Source: Mariniphaga sp.
GTDB lineage: Bacteria > Bacteroidota > Bacteroidia > Bacteroidales > Prolixibacteraceae
DNA: 64,000 nucleotides
Reading direction: 5' to 3'
Assembly (NCBI GenBank): GCA_010906965.1
Contig: JAAFHB010000002.1
Location: 1 to 64,000 of the forward strand
In this document: positions 4,968 to 17,643 of the stretch, piece by piece
Position numbering within the stretch: the first letter of the stretch is position 1
Layout of the letters: each line of letters opens with the position of its first letter
Program-made: the position numbers and the translations under genes
Notes under the pieces: model-generated
Seen by the model: the letters and a program-made list of their open reading frames with translations, nothing else
Told to the model about the DNA's origin: nothing
The model's database searches: none

Positions 4968-6476
4968 GTGAAAAAAGAGAAAATGAGACCGTATAAAAAC
5001 GCACACAGATGTTATAGAATTGGAATGAAGCATTTATTACTTTCGATATTGGGATGCGTCTTCTTCCAGACAATTTTTGCTCAATCCAGATTAGGACTTA
5101 AAGGCAAAGCACTACAAAATGCAGGTTATTCCGCTTATGTTATTGATGCAGTGAATGGCAACGTTTTATACAAGACTTCTCAGGTAAGTCTGGTTCCTGC
5201 CTCAGTAATGAAAATTGTTACCACAGCCACAGCATTAGAAATTTTAGGAGCCGATTTTGCATTCCATACGCAATTAGGTATTTCAGGCAAAGTGAATACA
5301 GAGACCGGTTTATTGGCTGGAAATCTCATTTTCAAAGGTGGTTGCGACCCTGCATTCTACTCCGAATATTTTCCCGAGCATTACAGGGGAACCTATGAAG
5401 CTTGGGCAGAAGCCCTTTCAAAAGCCGGGGTAAAAAGAATTCAGGGCGATTTTATCGTCGATTTGTCTCAAATGAGCGGCTCATCCATACCCGGCGGCTG
5501 GTTATGGGAAGATATTGGGAACTACTATGGCGCAGGCGTTTCGGCACTCACTTATTCCGATAACTACTACAAAATTCATTTTTCCTCCCCTTCGGAGTCT
5601 GGCAAACCGGTAACTATTAATAGAACAGATCCGCAGATCGACAGTTTAAACCTCACGAACAAGGTTGTTTCTTCCGAAGTAAACCGTGATCTGGCATTTA
5701 TTTACGGTGCTCCCGGCTCTTTTTCTCAACTCGTTGAAGGATCAATTCCGGGCGGTCGTTCCGATTTTGTTGTGAAAGCCTCAATGCCCGATCCTGCCCG
5801 AATTGCAGCAAATGAATTCATTAAGATATTGAAATATAACAAAATAGACATATCTGGGAAAGTCCTATTTGTCAATTCCCCAAAAAATGAACCGTTTACA
5901 CTGATCGCAGAAAAAATGTCACCTCCACTTCATGATCTGATCGTCCCGCTTAATAAGGAGAGCATCAATCTGTTTGCCGAACATTTGCTGCGCGAAATTG
6001 GACGTGCCCGAAAAGGGTCTTCTTCATTGGATAAAAGTATTGAAGCAATTAATGAATTTTGGATTGAAAAGGGTGTTTTTCTAAACGGGTATTACCCAAC
6101 TGATGGAAGCGGTCTTTCGCGTTCGAATGGAATTTGTCCGCGCACATTGGTAGAAGTACTTCGCCATATGTATCTTAGCCCAAATCGTGAAAATTTTATC
6201 AACTCGCTCCCAGTAGCCGGGCAAAGCGGAACACTTCAATCGGCTTTTAAAGGGTCGAGACTTGAAAATAACCTAAGGGCGAAAACCGGTTCAATGACAA
6301 GGGTCAGAAGTATGGCCGGAATTTTCACTAATCAAAAAGGTAAAAAGGTGATATTCTCAATTATCACAAATAATTTTGATGGAACACAAGCTTTGGCCGG
6401 ACATTCAATTGAAGATTTTCTGAATGTAATTTATTTGATGGATTCAACCCCAGTTAAAAAACAAGTAGCTCATTGA
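4968..6476 (+). CDS. dacB: D-alanyl-D-alanine carboxypeptidase/endopeptidase (PBP4 family)
   Basis: SxxK motif (PASVMKIVTTA), DGSGLSR, KTGS (RAKTGSMTRVRS); signal peptide. Confidence 0.9.
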   Translation: MKKEKMRPYKNAHRCYRIGMKHLLLSILGCVFFQTIFAQSRLGLKGKALQNAGYSAYVIDAVNGNVLYKTSQVSLVPASVMKIVTTATALEILGADFAFHTQLGISGKVNTETGLLAGNLIFKGGCDPAFYSEYFPEHYRGTYEAWAEALSKAGVKRIQGDFIVDLSQMSGSSIPGGWLWEDIGNYYGAGVSALTYSDNYYKIHFSSPSESGKPVTINRTDPQIDSLNLTNKVVSSEVNRDLAFIYGAPGSFSQLVEGSIPGGRSDFVVKASMPDPARIAANEFIKILKYNKIDISGKVLFVNSPKNEPFTLIAEKMSPPLHDLIVPLNKESINLFAEHLLREIGRARKGSSSLDKSIEAINEFWIEKGVFLNGYYPTDGSGLSRSNGICPRTLVEVLRHMYLSPNRENFINSLPVAGQSGTLQSAFKGSRLENNLRAKTGSMTRVRSMAGIFTNQKGKKVIFSIITNNFDGTQALAGHSIEDFLNVIYLMDSTPVKKQVAH

Positions 6477-6688
6477 ATTTTATTAAAACATTTGGTCATT
6501 TTCTTTTAAAATTCTCAAATATTACCAAAATCGCCATTAAAATATCGAATTGCATTAATTAATTGTAAATTGCTTACGATTTTATTTTGAGATGAAAGTT
6601 TTATTAGTAGTTTTGCCCCGAAGTTTATTGAAAAGCATTAGCCGGAAAATTTGGTTAAACAAAAACAAAAGTTCAATTGTTGTTTTAT

Positions 6689-6696
6689 TAGATTTG
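6689..6696 (+). promoter_or_regulatory. Candidate Bacteroidota -7 promoter element TAGATTTG upstream of ilv leader
   Basis: Matches TAnnTTTG; the -33 element is not convincing. Confidence 0.35.
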
Positions 6697-6710
6697 TATT
6701 TTTAGAAATT

Positions 6711-6776
6711 ATGAAGAATTTAAATTTATATAGCCTTCTACTCGTGGTCATTCTTATTCTCGTCGATAACGGGTGA
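6711..6776 (+). CDS. ilv operon leader peptide MKNLNLYSLLLVVILILVDNG (attenuator)
   Basis: Short ORF with 12 of 21 residues Leu/Val/Ile (7 L, 3 V, 2 I), immediately followed by antiterminator and terminator segments upstream of ilvD. Confidence 0.85.
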   Translation: MKNLNLYSLLLVVILILVDNG

Positions 6777-6842
6777 GGAGGGTTATATATTGTATGATAA
6801 AACATATAAGAGCCTTTCTCGAAATGAGAAAGGCTTTTTTTT
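6732..6842 (+). promoter_or_regulatory. Transcription attenuator RNA (segments 1-4) for the ilv-leu operon
   Basis: Segment 1 AGCCTTCTACTC (6732-6743), 2 GAGGAGGGTT (6775-6784), 3 AGCCTTTCTC (6811-6820), 4 GAGAAAGGCT (6826-6835); 2 can pair with 1 or 3, and 3 pairs perfectly with 4. Confidence 0.82.
6811..6842 (+). terminator. Intrinsic terminator of the ilv attenuator
   Basis: AGCCTTTCTC-gaaat-GAGAAAGGCT followed by a run of T. Confidence 0.92.
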
Positions 6843-6860
6843 AAACAAAACTTTGCCATC

Positions 6861-8693
6861 ATGAAAAATATACTTAGGAGCAATACAACAACAATGGGCC
6901 GCAGGATGGCTGGTGCACGTAGCTTATGGAGAGCAAATGGCATGAAGGAGGAGCAATTTGGTAAACCTTTAATTGCGGTGGTTAACTCCTTTACCCAATT
7001 TGTTCCCGGACACGCTCATCTTCATGAGATTGGGCAAATGGTGAAAAAACTGATTGAAGATGAAGGGTGTTTTGCCGCAGAGTTTAATACAATCGCAATT
7101 GACGACGGTATTGCAATGGGACACGACGGAATGTTATACTCGCTCCCTTCGCGCGACCTGATAGCCGATAGTGTTGAGTACATGATCAATGCGCACAAGG
7201 CAGATGCCATGATCTGCATCTCGAATTGCGATAAGATAACACCCGGAATGCTGATGGCAGCCATGAGACTGAATATTCCATGCATCTTTGTTTCAGGTGG
7301 TCCGATGGAAGCTGGTGTGGTTGCCGATAAAAAATACGACCTGGTCGATGCGATGGTAATGGCAGCCGATCCCTCGGTTGACGAAAAATTACTTTCAGAA
7401 GTTGAGCAAAAAGCCTGTCCCACATGCGGTTCCTGTTCGGGAATGTTCACCGCTAATTCGATGAACTGTTTAACAGAGGCCTTAGGTCTTTCACTTCCTG
7501 GTAACGGCACAATCGTTGCAACGCATTTAAACCGTAAGAAACTGTTCGAAAAAGCGGCCAAACGGTTGGTAGAAATCACCTGGGATTATTACCGTGATGG
7601 AAATGAAAAAGTTTTGCCGCGAAACATCGCGTCGCGCGAAGCATTTATGAACGCCATGACGCTCGATATCGCAATGGGTGGATCGACCAATACTGTATTG
7701 CATTTATTGGCAGTTGCCCACGAAGCCGAAGTCAATTTTACGATGCAGGACATCGACGCACTTTCGCGAAAAGTTCCATGCATTTGTAAAGTGTCGCCTA
7801 ATTCGCATTACCATATTCAGGATGTTAACCGTGCCGGTGGCATCATGGGAATTCTGGGGGAACTCGAAAAAGGAGGATTATTAAATACTTCAGTTTCACG
7901 TGTCACCGATGGAACTTTGGGTGCTGCCATTAACAAATGGGATATCCAAAGAACTTCATCCGACGTTGATGCCCGGAAACTGTATACTTCTGCTCCCGGA
8001 AATATTGGCCGGAACCTGACATTGGGTTCGCAGGATACCTATTATTCTGAATTAGATGTTGACCGGAAGCGAGGGTGCATCCGCGATGTAGAAAATGCCT
8101 ATATGAAAGAGGGTGGTTTGGCGATTCTTTATGGAAATATTGCCGTTGATGGATGTATTGTAAAAACGGCTGGTGTCGATCCATCTGTTTTCCATTTTAA
8201 TGGTGTTGCCCGGGTTTATGAATCACAGGACGACGCATGTGAAGGTATTTTGAAACGTGAGGTGATTCCCGGTGAAGTAGTGATCATCCGTTACGAAGGT
8301 CCCAAAGGTGGTCCGGGCATGCAGGAGATGCTTTACCCAACTTCTTATCTGAAAGCATCTAAGCTTGACAAAGTTTGTGCATTACTAACCGACGGACGAT
8401 TTTCGGGTGGAACTTCAGGACTCTCGATCGGCCACGTATCACCCGAAGCTGCTGCCGGAGGAGCAATTGCGCTTGTAAAAGATGGTGACCGAATTGAGAT
8501 CGATATACCGCAACGCAGAATTGAATTGATGATTTCTAATGAGGAATTTGAAATCCGGAAAAAAGCACAGGATGCACGTGGGAAGATGGCTTATCAACCC
8601 GAAAAAAGAACAAGAATTATCAGCAAAGCACTAAAAGCATATGCAAGCCTTGTTGCCTCGGCAGACAAGGGAGCGGTAAGAGTTATTGAATAA
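6861..8693 (+). CDS. ilvD: Dihydroxy-acid dehydratase
   Basis: [73 protein letters not shown]. Confidence 0.97.
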
Positions 8694-8710: not shown

Positions 8711-10453
8711 ATGACATCCATATCAAACGACAATATTCTTGATCAGGAGCCGGAAGAAATCACGGGCTCCGAAGCGGTTTGCCGCTCACTGATTGCCGAA
8801 GGTGTTGATACAATCTTTGGATATCCGGGTGGTGCCATTATGCCGGTTTATGATGCGTTACACGATCACCATCATCACCTTAAACATGTTCTTACGCGCC
8901 ATGAGCAGGGAGCCGTTCATGCAGCGCAGGGTTATGCACGCGTTTCAGGCAAAGTAGGGGTTTGTCTGGCGACTTCGGGTCCGGGTGCAACAAATTTAAT
9001 AACAGGCATTGCCGATGCACTTATTGATTCCACGCCACTCGTTTGTATTACCGGGCAAGTTACTTCCGGGTTATTGGGTACCGACGCATTTCAGGAATCG
9101 GATGTGATTGGCATTACAATGCCGGTCACCAAGTGGAATTATCAGATTACCAGTGCAGAAGAGATTCCGGAAGCGATATCGCGCGCATTTTATATTGCGG
9201 CAAGTGGCCGTCCGGGTCCGGTGGTATTAGACATTACGAAGGATGCACAGTTTGCGAAAGTCAAATATTCCTACTCAAAATGCATTAAAATCCGTTCGTA
9301 TGTTCCCGAATATCCTGCTGACAAATTGCTGATAAAGAAAGCTGCCGATTTAATTAACAATGCAAAAAAACCTTTTTTGCTTTACGGTCAGGGTGTGATG
9401 TTATCTGGAGGTGAGAAAGAACTCGTCAGTTTTATTGAAAAAACCGGAATCCCTGCCGCTGGAACTTTGCTGGGATTATCAGCAATTCCTACCGATCATC
9501 CTTTAAATATGGGAATGCTGGGAATGCATGGAAACTACGGACCAAATATTAAAACCAACGAATGTGATGTTTTAATTGCTGTTGGAATGCGATTCGACGA
9601 CCGGGTCACAGGTAGCACATCAACTTATGCAAAACAAGCCAAAGTAATTCATATTGAGATCGATCCGGCAGAAATTGATAAAAATGTCAAAACAGAAGTA
9701 GCACTGATTGGAGATGCAAAACATACTTTAAGATTGCTTTCGAAGTTAGCTAACGAAAAGCAGCACCCGGAATGGATTGCAGAGTTTGAGGATGCTGAAA
9801 ATATTGAAAAACAAAAGGTTATAAATAATGACCTTGCACCGAAAAAACCAGGACTGACAATGGCCGAAGTGGTTCGGATGGTTTCGGACCTCACGGATAA
9901 TAGAGCCATTGTAATCACAGATGTTGGACAAAACCAAATGGCGGCTGCCCGTTATTCAAAATTTGTCGATTCACGCAGTTGGGTAACATCCGGTGGATTA
10001 GGAACTATGGGTTTTGGATTACCTGCAGCGATGGGCGCGAAATTCGGTGCTCCCGATCGCGAAGTCGTGGTCTTTACAGGCGACGGTGGAATGCAGATGA
10101 CTATCCAAGAATTGGGTACGATTGCCCAGGAAAAACTGGCTGTTAAAATTGTGATTCTGAATAATCATTTCCTTGGAATGGTGAGGCAATGGCAAGAACT
10201 GTTCTTCGAAAAACGTTACTCTTTCACCGAAATCCTAAGTCCGGATTTTGTAAAAGTAGCTGATGCTTATGGCATTCCAGGCTGTGCAGTACATAGCCGG
10301 AACGAACTCGAAGGTGCGATGAAGAAAATGATTGATCACGACGGGCCTTATTTGCTCGAAGTGATGATTGAAAAAGAAGACAATATCTTTCCGATGGTTC
10401 CAGCCGGAAAATCGGTTTCGCAAATTATTCTTAGTGCAGACGAACTGAATTAA
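8711..10453 (+). CDS. ilvB: Acetolactate synthase large subunit
   Basis: TPP-dependent: [46 protein letters not shown]. Confidence 0.97.
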
Positions 10454-10463
10454 AATCAATAAG

Positions 10464-11021
10464 ATGAAACAGGAATATATCATAACAGCCTACAGCGAAA
10501 ATCACATTGGTTTGCTGAACCGGATAACCATCATTTTTACACGGCGCAAAGTAAATATCGAAAGCCTCACAGTCTCCGAATCTGCACTGCAAGGGATCAG
10601 CAAATTTACGATTGTTGTCAACGAAGAGAAAGAGAAGGTGGTCAATATTGTCAAGCAGATCGACAAGCAGATTGAGGTGTTGAAAGCTTTCTATTACACC
10701 AATGATGAGATGATTTTCCAGGAAATCGCCCTCTATAAAGTTCCAACTACTGCATTGATGGAGAGCGATCAGATCGAAAAACTGATTAGAAAGCACAATG
10801 CCCGGATATTGGAGATCACGCACGAATATACTGTAATCGAAAAGACGGGTCATAAAGAAGAAACACAGGAACTTTTCGAAGGATTGAACTCTTTCGGCGT
10901 TTTACAGTTTATACGATCGGGAAGAGTGGCAATTACCCGCTCCCCAATCGAAAAATTATCGGTATTTCTGAAAGAACGGGATTCTCTTTTCGAAAAACTG
11001 GAAGCAAAGAAAAAAGTATAA
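10464..11021 (+). CDS. ilvN: Acetolactate synthase small subunit (ACT domain)
   Basis: YIITAYSENHIGLLNRITIIFTRRKVNIESLTVSES; adjacent to ilvB. Confidence 0.93.
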   Translation: MKQEYIITAYSENHIGLLNRITIIFTRRKVNIESLTVSESALQGISKFTIVVNEEKEKVVNIVKQIDKQIEVLKAFYYTNDEMIFQEIALYKVPTTALMESDQIEKLIRKHNARILEITHEYTVIEKTGHKEETQELFEGLNSFGVLQFIRSGRVAITRSPIEKLSVFLKERDSLFEKLEAKKKV

Positions 11022-11053: not shown

Positions 11054-12574
11054 ATGGATAATAATCGCGTATATATTTTCGACACAACACTGCGTGATGG
11101 CGAGCAGGTTCCTGGATGTCAACTGAATACAATCGAGAAGGTTGAAGTTGCCAAAGTTCTTGAGCAATTGGGTGTTGATGTTATCGAAGCAGGATTTCCA
11201 ATCTCAAGCCCCGGTGATTTTAAATCGGTTGTCGAAATCTCGAAAGCGGTAACATGGCCGACAATCTGCGCGCTTACCCGTGCAGTCGAAAAAGATATTG
11301 ATGTAGCTGCCGAATCGCTGAAATACGCCAAACATGGCCGTATTCATACTGGGATCGGCACCTCACCCTATCATATCCAGTACAAACTGAATTCGAATCC
11401 CGACGAAATTCTTGCGAGAGCTGTTGCCGCTGTAAAATATGCAAAAAAATATGTCGAGGATGTTGAGTTCTATGCCGAAGATGCGGGTCGTTCCGATAAT
11501 GTTTACCTGGCAAGGGTCATCGAGGCGGTCATCAAAGCGGGTGCAACGGTTGTAAATATTCCGGATACAACAGGATATTGTTTGCCCAGCGAATTTGGAG
11601 AGAAGATCAAATTCCTGATCGACAATGTTCCGAATATCCACAAAGCGATCATTTCCACGCACTGCCACAACGATTTGGGGATGGCGACTGCCAACTCAAT
11701 TGCCGGTGTGATGAATGGCGCACGCCAGGTAGAAGTGACAATTAACGGAATTGGTGAACGTGCTGGAAATACAGCACTTGAAGAAGTGGTAATGATCCTC
11801 CGTTCCCACAAAGAGTTGAATCTTTATACGAATGTCAACTCAAAAAATATTTACAAGACAAGTCGCCTGATTTCAAGTCTGATGAATATGCCGGTTCAAC
11901 CCAATAAAGCCATTGTGGGAAGAAATGCATTCTCTCATTCAAGTGGTATCCATCAGGATGGCGTTTTGAAAAACCGTGAAAACTACGAAATCATCGATCC
12001 TGTTGAAGTTGGTATCAGCGAATCTTCGATTGTTCTGACTGCGAGAAGTGGCCGCGCCGCATTAAAGCACCGGCTTGATTTACTTGGAATCACACTTGAA
12101 AAAGAAAAGCTTGACGAAGTTTACGAGGAATTCCTGCTGTTGGCCGATAAGAAGAAAGACATAAAAGAAGACGATCTGCTGATGCTTGTGGGCGAGAAGG
12201 TAAAAAGCGAGCACCGCATTAAACTCGACTTTCTGCAAGTGGTCACCGGGAAGAACATGGTTCCGATGGCAACAATCAGGCTCGATATTGCTGGTGAAAA
12301 ATTCACAGCCACAGAGTCTGGAAATGGGCCGGTTGATGCAGCCATCAAAGCGGTGAAATGTATTATTCACCGGAAAGTTACGTTACAGGAGTTTTTGATC
12401 CAGGCCATTAATAAAGGAAGCGACGACATTGGTAAAGTTCATATGCAGGTTGAGTACGATGAGAACATCTACAACGGGTTTGGCGCAAATACCGATATTA
12501 TAACTGCTTCAGTTGAGGCTTTTATCGATGCTATTAATAAGATCGGAAACGCAGAAATAGCTGCTGCTAAATGA
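11054..12574 (+). CDS. leuA: 2-isopropylmalate synthase
   Basis: [70 protein letters not shown]. Confidence 0.95.
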
Positions 12575-12619: not shown

Positions 12620-14023
12620 ATGATTTTGGAACCAAAAACGCTTTTTGATAAAATCTGGGACGCCCATGTGGTTAAACAAGTAAAAGACGGCCCCGATGTA
12701 TTGTACATCGACAGGCACTTTATTCATGAAGTCACAAGTCCTGTTGCTTTTTTAGGTTTGGAAAAACGGGGAATGAAAGTATACAGTCCGCAAAATACAA
12801 TTGCAACTCCCGACCATAATGTTCCCACCATCGATCAGCACCTTCCTATTAAAGAAGAACTTTCGAGAATTCAGGTACAGGCACTTAAAGATAACTGTGC
12901 CAAAAACGGCATTAAACTTTACGGTCTCGATCATCAGTATCATGGAATCGTCCATATTATCGGGCCGGAGTTGGGGATTACACAACCTGGAATGACGATT
13001 GTTTGCGGCGACAGCCACACCTCCACGCACGGCGCTTTCGGCAGCATCGCTTTCGGAATCGGAACAAGTGAGGTTGAGATGGTTTTTGCAAGTCAGTGTA
13101 TCCTTCAGCCAAAGCCTAAAAAAATGAGGATCAGCGTTGAAGGGAAATTGCAAAAGGATGTCACTGCAAAAGATATTGCGCTTTACGTAATTTCAAAAAT
13201 CTCAACTTCCGGTGGTACTGGTCACTTCATCGAATTTGCCGGTTCTGCAATACAGAGCTTGTCAATGGAAGGTCGAATGACATTGTGCAACATGAGTATC
13301 GAATGTGGCGCCCGCGGCGGGATGATTGCTCCGGATGAAGCAACTTTCGAATACATCAAAGGACGCGAATTTGCACCGAAAGGTGAAGATTGGAACAAAA
13401 AACTGGCTCTTTGGAAACAATTAAAATCTGATGACAAGGCTGTTTTTGATACTGAATATCAGTATGATGCTTCAGATATTGAACCCATGATCACCTATGG
13501 CACAAATCCAGGAATGGGAATTGGGGTCAGTGGAAATATCCCGACTGGTGAAAACCTGACAGGCTCCGACCGTATTACTTTTGATAAGTCACTGGAATAT
13601 ATGGGTTTCAAACCCGGAGAGAAAATCAAAGGTAAAAAAGTCGATTATGTCTTTATCGGAAGTTGTACAAATGGACGAATTGAAGATTTCAGACTCTTTG
13701 CCAACTTTGTGAAAGGGAAAAAGAAAGCCGCTTCAGTGATTGCATGGATTGTTCCTGGTTCTAAAAAGGTGGAGCAGCAAATCAGGGAAGAAGGGTTGGT
13801 CGAAATATTTGAAGCTGCCGGTTTTGCATTGCGTCAGCCTGGCTGTTCGGCATGTCTGGCAATGAATGATGACAAAATCCCGGCAGGAAAATATTCAGTC
13901 TCAACATCGAACCGCAACTTCGAAGGTCGTCAGGGTCCAGGAGCACGCACGATGCTTGCCAGCCCTTTAATGGCTGCTGCTGCTGCAATTTCGGGAGTTG
14001 TTTCCGATCCGAGAGAGATGTAA
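12620..14023 (+). CDS. leuC: 3-isopropylmalate dehydratase large subunit
   Basis: [74 protein letters not shown]. Confidence 0.97.
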
Positions 14024-14141: not shown

Positions 14142-14729
14142 ATGTCTATAGAAAAATTCCAGAAACTGGTCAGTACAGTTGTTCCGCTTCCAATCGAGAA
14201 TGTGGACACCGACCAGATCATCCCTGCGCGATTCCTCAAAGCGGTGGAGCGTAAAGGATTTGGAGATAACCTATTCAGAGACTGGCGATACAAAAAAGAT
14301 GGCACACCAAATCCTGATTTTGTATTGAACAATCCCCGCTATTCAGGTCAGATTTTAGTTGCCGGAAAGAATTTTGGCAGCGGATCAAGTCGTGAACATG
14401 CTGCATGGGCCGTGTATGATGCAGGATTCAGAGTGGTCGTTTCGAGTTTCTTTGCCGATATATTTAAAAGCAATGTTTTAAACAACGGATTGTTGCCTGT
14501 TCAGGTTCCCGAAGCGTTCCTTGACGAAATTTTCCAGATTGTTGAAATCGATCCGACTGCCAAATTTGAGGTTGATCTTGAGAGTCAAACCATCACAATT
14601 CTGAAAGCAGGAATAAGCGTTAATTTCGATATTAATCCTTATAAAAAAGAGTGCCTTCTGAATGGCTATGACGATATTGATTTCCTGTTAAGTCTTAAAG
14701 AGGAGATCAGCGCGTTTGAACAAGCTTAA
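14142..14729 (+). CDS. leuD: 3-isopropylmalate dehydratase small subunit
   Basis: [30 protein letters not shown]. Confidence 0.96.
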
Positions 14730-16287
14730 TTATACAGTTTCAACCGTGAACACAAATAAAGAGCATATGGTTTATATAATGGATACGACCCTGAGAGATG
14801 GTGAACAGACCTCAGGCGTCTCCTTTTCCGAACTGGAAAAGCTGAACATTGCAAAGATTCTTCTCGATGAACTTCGGATCGATTATATTGAAGTGGCCTC
14901 AGCACGTGTTTCAGACGGAGAGTTAAGGGGAGCCAAAAAAGTGCTCGATTGGGCGAAACAGGCAGGTTATCTCGAACGGATTGAGATTCTTGGTTTTGTG
15001 GATGGAAAAATATCGCTCGAATGGATTTCGCGTGTCGGTGGAAAAGTAATGAACCTGTTAGCCAAGGGATCGCTTCGGCATGTCACCCAGCAGTTAAAGA
15101 AAACACCAGAGGAACACCTTGCCAACATTAAAAGTTCGCTGCAACTGGCCGAGTCGATGGGAATAAGGGTCAACATCTACCTCGAAGACTGGTCGAATGG
15201 AATGCGGCATTCTCCAGAATATGTTGATTTTATGCTCGAAGGTCTCAAATCCGAAAAAATAGGACGCGTAATGTTACCCGATACTTTGGGAATATTAAAT
15301 CCGTCCGAAACTTTCGATTTCTGTTCATCGATCATTCACAAATTCCCCGATCTTCGGTTCGATTTCCATGCCCATAACGATTACGACCTGGCAATTGCCA
15401 ATGTCGATGCGGCTATTCGGGCAGGAATAACAACTGTCCATACAACTGTGAATGGTTTGGGTGAACGGGCAGGCAATGCGCCACTTTCGAGTGTAATAGC
15501 CTTGCTGAACGACCAGCTTAAAATTCCAAATTCGGTGAATGAACGAAAATTAAGTTTGGCCAGCCGGCTTGTCGAAAATTTTTCGGGGGTTCGTATTGCG
15601 GGTAATAAGCCAATAATTGGCGAAAACGTCTTTACGCAATGCAGCGGAATACATGCTGATGGAGATAATAAAGACCAGCTATATTTCAATGATTTACTTC
15701 CAGAACGGTTTGGCAGAATACGGAAATATGCATTGGGCAAGACCTCAGGAAAGGCGAACATTGCCAAAAACCTCGAGGATATCGGCATACGTCTCGATCC
15801 TGAAGATTTGAAAAGGGTTACAGACAAGGTAATTGAATTGGCCGATAAGAAAGAATCGGTTACTTCAGATGATCTTCCTTATATCCTTTCGGATGTTTTA
15901 AAGAGTGAAACCGTTATCGAGAAAATCAGGTTACGGAATTATGCAATCTCTCATGCACTCGGACTCCGGCCAATGGCAACTGTAGCAATTGAAGTCGACG
16001 GTGAACTATTTGAAGAAGCCTCATCAGGCGATGGCCAGTACGACGCATTTATGAATGCCCTCCGAAAAATCTATCATAAACAGAATAAATCATTCCCATT
16101 ACTGATCGATTACATCGTTACAATTCCTCCCGGAGGAAAGACAGATGCTCTGGTCGAAACTTTGATTACCTGGAAAATGGGACGTGAATTTAAAACTCGT
16201 GGTCTTGACCCTGACCAGACAACCGCCGCCATCAAAGCAACGATGAAAATGCTGAACATTGTTGAAAACGACACCCAGATGTTCTAG
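14716..16287 (+). CDS. 2-isopropylmalate/citramalate synthase family protein with LeuA regulatory domain (candidate CimA)
   Basis: [61 protein letters not shown]-terminal allosteric-like domain; overlaps leuD by 14 nt. Confidence 0.85.
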
Positions 16288-16572: not shown

Positions 16573-17643
16573 ATGAAGCTTAACATTGCAGTATTGGCCG
16601 GAGACGGAATCGGCCCTGAAATTATTGAACAGGCGCTCCGCGTCACCAAAGTTGTTTGTCGGAAATTCGGTCACGAGCTGATTACAAGAACCGCCCTTGT
16701 TGGAGCTGTCGCTATCGATGAAGTCGGCAATCCTTATCCCGATGAGACACACAACCTTTGTATGAACTCCGATGCAGTTCTTTTTGGAGCAATTGGTCAC
16801 CCACGTTACGACAACGACCCGTCTGCAAAAGTTCGTCCCGAACAAGGTTTGTTGGCCATGCGTAAGAAGCTTGGGTTGTATGCCAATATTCGTCCCGTAA
16901 CTATCTTTGAATCATTGCTCGACAAATCACCATTGAAGCGAGATCGTGTTGAAGGTGTTGATTTTGTGGCAATCCGCGAACTGACTGGAGGAATCTACTT
17001 TGGTCAACCACAGGGTCGTTCCGAAGATGGAAATACGGCTTACGACTCATCCGTTTATACACGAGTGGAAGTTGAGCGCATACTTGAACTCGCTTTCCAG
17101 TTTGCGATGAAACGCAGTAAAAGGCTCACCGTTGTCGATAAAGCCAATGTGCTTGCCACATCAAGATTATGGCGCCAGGTTGCGAAAGAGATGGAGCCCC
17201 ATTTCCCCGAAGTGGTTGTCGATTATATGTTTGTCGATAATGCCGCGATGCAGCTAATTCAATGGCCCAAGAAGTTTGATGTGATGGTTACTGAAAATAT
17301 GTTTGGTGATATCCTGACTGATGAAGCAAGTGTGATCACAGGTTCAATGGGACTTCTGCCATCGGCTTCAATCGGAACCCACACTTCAGTATTTGAGCCA
17401 ATCCACGGATCATATCCTCAGGCAGCAGGTAAAAACATTGCCAATCCTTGCGCAACGATTCTTTCCGCTGCAATGATGTTCGAATATGCATTCTCGTTGA
17501 TAGAAGAGGGCGCCATGATCCGCAAAGCGGTCGAAGCCGCTATTGTTGCAGGCGCTGTTACGGAAGATCTGTGCGAAGATAAATCAAAAGCACTTAGCAC
17601 TTCAGCTGTTGGAGATTGGATTGTGGATTATCTTAGCAAATAA
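16573..17643 (+). CDS. leuB: 3-isopropylmalate dehydrogenase
   Basis: [58 protein letters not shown]. Confidence 0.96.

Follow-up and report, generated by a model that had tools for sequence, protein, structure and literature searches.

The window, by which is meant the whole stretch of 64,000 nucleotides of Mariniphaga DNA that was analysed, raises the question of how its ilv-leu operon is controlled, and in particular whether the region in front of ilvD holds a complete ribosome-mediated attenuator, as an earlier note on this DNA had proposed. The operon, on the forward strand like all features described below, begins with ilvD for dihydroxy-acid dehydratase (6861-8693, ATG at 6861; NCBIfam NF009103 and TIGR00110, above cut-off) and has the order ilvD-ilvB-ilvN-leuA-leuC-leuD-cimA-leuB. 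Matches above cut-off identified ilvB (acetolactate synthase large subunit, 8711-10453, TIGR00118), leuA (2-isopropylmalate synthase, 11054-12574, TIGR00973), leuC (12620-14023, TIGR00170), leuD (14142-14729, TIGR00171) and leuB (16573-17643, TIGR00169). The name ilvN (10464-11021) is putative, assigning the acetolactate synthase small subunit from the position of the gene between ilvB and leuA, and no NCBIfam match was found for its product at E<=1e-60. The gene written as cimA (14716-16287) is citramalate-synthase-like, or a leuA paralogue, its best NCBIfam match, CimA (NF042433), having a score of 661 bits that lies below the 950-bit cut-off.

Upstream of ilvD, a short ORF runs from an ATG at 6711 to a TGA at 6774-6776 (6711-6776) and is predicted to encode the 21-residue leader peptide MKNLNLYSLLLVVILILVDNG, with Ile/Leu/Val-rich orthologous leaders in relatives. 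Twelve of its 21 codons specify Leu, Val or Ile, the same coordinates and count as in the earlier note, and these control codons lie between codons 4 and 18 (6720-6764). When the leader of the window was shuffled, an ORF equally rich in the three residues at the same position was obtained once in 100 shuffles, and the fold of the whole leader (-43.8 kcal/mol, z = -5.9) was matched in stability by none of 200 dinucleotide shuffles. A scan for sigma-70-type promoters gave little above chance, as is expected for Bacteroidota, and the motif TAnnTTTG, which we take to be the -7 promoter element of this phylum, was used instead. A match, TAGATTTG, is found at 6689-6696 and is the predicted promoter, from which we infer a transcript start about 8-10 nt 5' of the leader ATG. 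Among 56 non-redundant leaders, 36 have the same motif in the 70 nt that precede the leader ATG, usually 21-44 nt away from it, where shuffles would give 2.95.

Between the leader ORF and ilvD, 18 nt 5' of the latter, lies a terminator hairpin (6811-6835) in which segment 3 (AGCCTTTCTC, 6811-6820) and segment 4 (GAGAAAGGCT, 6826-6835) form a perfect 10-bp stem, and a run of T8 after segment 4 (6835-6843) completes the intrinsic terminator. Segment 2 (GAGGAGGGTT, 6775-6784), the 5' arm of the antiterminator, overlaps the leader stop codon and can form ten consecutive pairs with segment 3, three of them G-U, to the exclusion of the 3:4 stem. The coordinates and pairings given in the earlier note are correct. 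A further segment, segment 1 (AGCCTTCT, 6732-6739), lies within the leader codons and pairs with segment 2 in a long hairpin (fold of 6727-6790, -22.9 kcal/mol).

This element is very probably a classical ribosome-mediated transcription attenuator of the ilv-leu operon, responding to the charging of tRNA-Leu, tRNA-Ile and tRNA-Val. RNA polymerase would start some 8-10 nt before the leader ATG, followed by a ribosome. With charged tRNA-Leu, -Val and -Ile plentiful, the ribosome would reach the stop codon at 6774 and its footprint, extending to about 6786, would cover segment 2; segment 3 would then pair with segment 4, and transcription would terminate before ilvD. If any of the three tRNAs were uncharged, the ribosome would stall on a control codon (6720-6764) with its leading edge no further than about 6774-6776, leaving segment 2 free to pair with nascent segment 3; the terminator could not form, and transcription would proceed through ilvD and the genes after it. 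Without translation the 1:2 hairpin would form in this genome, making termination the default.

The geometry and the folding of ribosome-bound states, both calculated with an assumed footprint of E. coli size, are consistent with this course of events. The control codons end at 6764, the stop codon begins at 6774 and segment 2 occupies 6775-6784, so placed that it is masked by a ribosome at the stop and free when the ribosome stands on the control codons. A ribosome at the stop leaves the 3:4 helix as the one structure that can form (-20.7 kcal/mol), whereas stalling at any of the tested A-sites from 6735 to 6762 lets the nascent RNA adopt the 2:3 fold (-15.9 to -19.3 kcal/mol) ahead of the synthesis of segment 4. 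At equilibrium, when both arms have been made, 3:4 is favoured over 2:3 (-20.7 vs -16.5 kcal/mol), and the switch must therefore be kinetic, decided by timing. In enterobacterial attenuators the outcome is likewise decided by timing.

Conservation was examined by collecting IlvD relatives from named genomes and from the genus, family, order, class and phylum of the window and inspecting the region 5' of ilvD. A strong terminator-like hairpin was found at 79 of 149 loci, 61 of them remaining after removal of near-duplicates; the 149 include loci without upstream sequence, with ilvD inside an operon, or from outside the class or phylum, and loci labelled Spirochaetes are absent from the terminator-bearing set. 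Leader ORFs, defined by an ATG start, 12-30 codons, an end at most 60 nt from the hairpin and at least 50% Ile/Leu/Val, precede the terminator in 69% of the 61 non-redundant leaders, as compared with 1.1% of dinucleotide shuffles. The leader codons, whose conservation had been put forward as a check on the proposal, are thus kept across families of Bacteroidales.

Beyond its Ile/Leu/Val content, the sequence of the leader peptide varies freely between families, which bears on the alternative that attenuation is accompanied by a role in trans of the released peptide or RNA, or that the element mainly senses the general rate of translation. There is a precedent in peTrpL of Sinorhizobium meliloti, a leader peptide acting in trans (PMC7298713). 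Such freedom suits codon reading, however, and nothing in the analysis points to a role in trans, so that this alternative is improbable.

The position of segment 2 was compared in 56 leaders: relative to the first base of the stop codon, its start ranges from 12 nt upstream to 7 nt downstream. At least eight pairs with terminator arm 3 are possible in 48 of the 56; fewer than eight were counted in the other 8, the case of locus L113 being an artefact of automatic ORF choice. At eight loci (L008, L009, L086, L092, L102, L104, L106 and L107) segment 2 comes before the stop codon and is still behind the codon run. The 2:3 duplex formed with the leader's own arm averages -12.8 kcal/mol, vs -8.3 kcal/mol with arms taken from other sequence classes.

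An alignment of 30 leaders, evaluated against shuffled and slid controls, disclosed compensatory changes in both helices, as had been called for in the earlier note. Of the cells of helix 2:3, 90.3% are paired, and of those of helix 3:4, 98.0%; both helices contain five pairs in which the two sides have changed, and each surpasses both kinds of control. The most telling covariation is in a single column of arm 3, where most leaders have U and a minority have A (GCCTTTCTC vs GCCATTCTC), with the partners in segment 2 and segment 4 changing together with it. In flavobacterial relatives the layout is kept with a different stem, CTGTATCA (CCTGTATCA), and the region of the leader stop reads TGATATAG or TGATGCAG, complementary to that stem.

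For segment 1 the outcome was mixed: its pairing is real in this genus and strong in the window (-22.9 kcal/mol), but general conservation was rejected, 1:2 pairing across 48 leaders being hardly better than in shuffles (mean z -0.67; 9 of 48 at p<=0.05). As 2:3 and 3:4 co-vary and 1:2 stays near the shuffles, 2:3:4 is therefore the conserved switch and 1:2 an optional part.

In a blind search of 147 genomes from the order, a covariance model built from the alignment matched 52. Thirty of the sites were fetched, and every one is upstream of a branched-chain gene, 26 before ilvD, three before leuA and one before ilvB. The attenuator is widely conserved in the order, and the earlier reading of it as an ilv-leu attenuator is borne out by the leader codons, the covariation of 2:3 and 3:4, and the occurrence of model sites only before branched-chain genes among the 30 inspected, segment 1 being the exception among the comparative tests.

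In the leuA-associated members (L262, L282 and L283) Leu and Ile codons abound and Val is scarce or absent, as would fit their pathway, three cases being too few to conclude. Pairs of branched-chain leader-terminator units in tandem, separated by a few tens of nt, were also seen before ilvD or ilvB in several genomes (L114; L127 in G058; L270 in G467; L279 in G474; L280 in G433; L275 in G391; and G475:C140), and from such serial units a tighter or broader response would be expected.

Upstream regions of his, trp, hom/thrA and pheA genes were gathered via family searches. In the same genome, hisG (L163, G000:C467) is preceded by a His attenuator that is conserved in the genus, composed of the leader MTKISIHTGLHHHLP, a segment 2 overlapping its stop codon and the terminator GGCTTACCT..AGGTAAGCC-T6. 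The trpE gene of this genome (L168, G000:C150) is preceded by two full leader-terminator units in series, the first with leader MKTFKSIWLWWGNTFLC and terminator CCGGCTTACC..GGTAAGCCGG-T6, the second with leader MKYLTLNNRAWRWQDYFLQT and terminator ACGGCTTATC..GATAAGCCGT-T8; the 2:3 helix of the first unit is the stronger one, at -14.2 kcal/mol vs -7.2 kcal/mol in the second. No convincing leader was found in the window's genus 5' of the PDT gene or of the aspartokinase/homoserine dehydrogenase gene.

The tandem trp layout was also observed in other genomes of the genus and at L172 (G042). Phe/Tyr-rich leader ORFs with terminators occur before prephenate dehydratase (pheA-like) genes in other Bacteroidales families (L203, L217 and L219).

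Riboswitches and protein-controlled attenuators share terminator/antiterminator layouts of this kind, and the hairpins of the window could accordingly belong to an attenuator that senses a metabolite or is bound by a regulator of the leader RNA, the ORF being incidental. This reading is very improbable, for the leader codons track the operon, with Ile/Leu/Val before ilv genes, His before hisG, Trp before trpE and Phe/Tyr before pheA, and conservation is seen in the codon run, in the placing of segment 2 at the stop codon and in the pairing rather than in an aptamer-like core. No Rfam family reaches its gathering score, and the Rfam matches up to E=5 within 6400-7000 include no T-box or riboswitch. 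That the hairpin does no more than terminate transcription of the dacB-like gene before it (4968-6476), as is ordinary between two genes on the same strand, and the ORF a chance frame in AT-rich DNA, which yields many Ile and Leu codons, is scarcely credible, since the hairpin lies 334 nt beyond the stop codon of that gene, with a promoter-like box and the ORF in between, since Ile/Leu/Val-rich ORFs are about 60 times commoner than in shuffles, since segment 2 co-varies with the terminator arm, and since the element accompanies ilvD, leuA or ilvB in other genomes.

Divergent forms were observed 5' of ilvD elsewhere in the phylum. In other classes (L147-L151 and L244-L254) the leader ORFs are mostly of 50-73 residues with an Ile/Leu/Val-rich run at the end, and past the stop codon there is a conserved block resembling GGTCAATCCC, which is complementary to one resembling GGGGTTGACC close to ilvD (2:3 z as low as -6.9). 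No U run directly 3' of the downstream hairpin was found at these loci, and the long-leader form looks like a different, terminator-less control, translational or Rho-dependent. Several of the genomes represented by L235-L243, from one family of the phylum (f42), have leader ORFs with Val/Ile-rich ends, such as ..VVPVLSVVQVVIPVS at L235, their leader content and pairing being less clear.

As for known RNA families, Rfam 15 holds none for the ilv element, and no amino acid leader was matched at the gathering threshold. The best Rfam match to the window, Thr_leader (RF00506), has a similar layout of leader and terminator, and membership was rejected at 25.7 bits vs a gathering score of 55. The literature search found no description of this ilv element; an earlier prediction is possible in Lopatovskaya et al. 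2010 (cited in PMC4833913), which may cover Bacteroidota.

The enterobacterial trp, his, leu and ilv attenuators resemble the element of the window in having a short ORF of control codons, mutually exclusive 2:3 and 3:4 helices, an intrinsic terminator and a ribosome that masks segment 2 from the stop codon. They differ from it in sequence, which is unrelated, and the element is further set apart by a segment 2 that overlaps or directly follows the stop, a very short predicted 5' end behind a TAnnTTTG promoter and a weakly conserved segment 1 pairing. The ilvBNC leader of Corynebacterium (PMC10272879, PMC11857589) likewise places a branched-chain leader or uORF with alternative hairpins before an ilv operon, but in a different phylum and with a different gene order and sequence. 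For Flavobacterium psychrophilum, which belongs to the same phylum and class, 'strong clues' of leader-peptide attenuation before amino acid operons have been reported (PMC9723704), with the same proposed mechanism; the section of that paper on attenuation gives neither anatomy nor covariation for ilv. The element of the window is from Bacteroidales, and its stem sequence differs from those of the flavobacterial ilvD leaders analysed here. As of 2010, leader-peptide systems were, by one group's own statement, known to it only in Proteobacteria and Actinobacteria, and the group extended the list to Firmicutes (PMC2965389). Salmonella mgtCBR offers a precedent for transcription attenuators that contain short ORFs and stand in tandem (PMC3641672); the literature searched gave no report of amino acid leader attenuators so arranged, which does not prove that there are none. 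The earlier note had emphasized the occurrence of such a system in a Bacteroidota-type genome: the instance is real and well supported, but the weight laid on novelty was somewhat high, the mechanism being a textbook one with clues already reported for Flavobacterium psychrophilum (PMC9723704). The finding is real, with unusually good support from the comparative evidence and an ordinary, already known mechanism.

The element supplies an RNA family that is missing from Rfam and offers an entry to attenuators throughout the phylum, including the tandem and the apparently terminator-less forms. It further suggests by what means major bacteria of the gut and the environment sense the supply of branched-chain amino acids. 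A ribosome-mediated attenuator works only with coupling of transcription and translation, and to our knowledge tight coupling in Bacteroidota has not been established; an attenuator that depends on it, widely conserved in the order and occurring several times in this one genome (ilv, his and tandem trp), would be a direct genetic readout of coupling. There is about an even chance that, throughout Bacteroidota, ribosome-mediated attenuation is a standard way of controlling amino acid operons and has been elaborated repeatedly, to include tandem units and, in other classes, a form with a long leader and no U-run terminator. If this is true, close coupling must hold throughout a phylum in which translation starts without Shine-Dalgarno sequences (PMC6847099).
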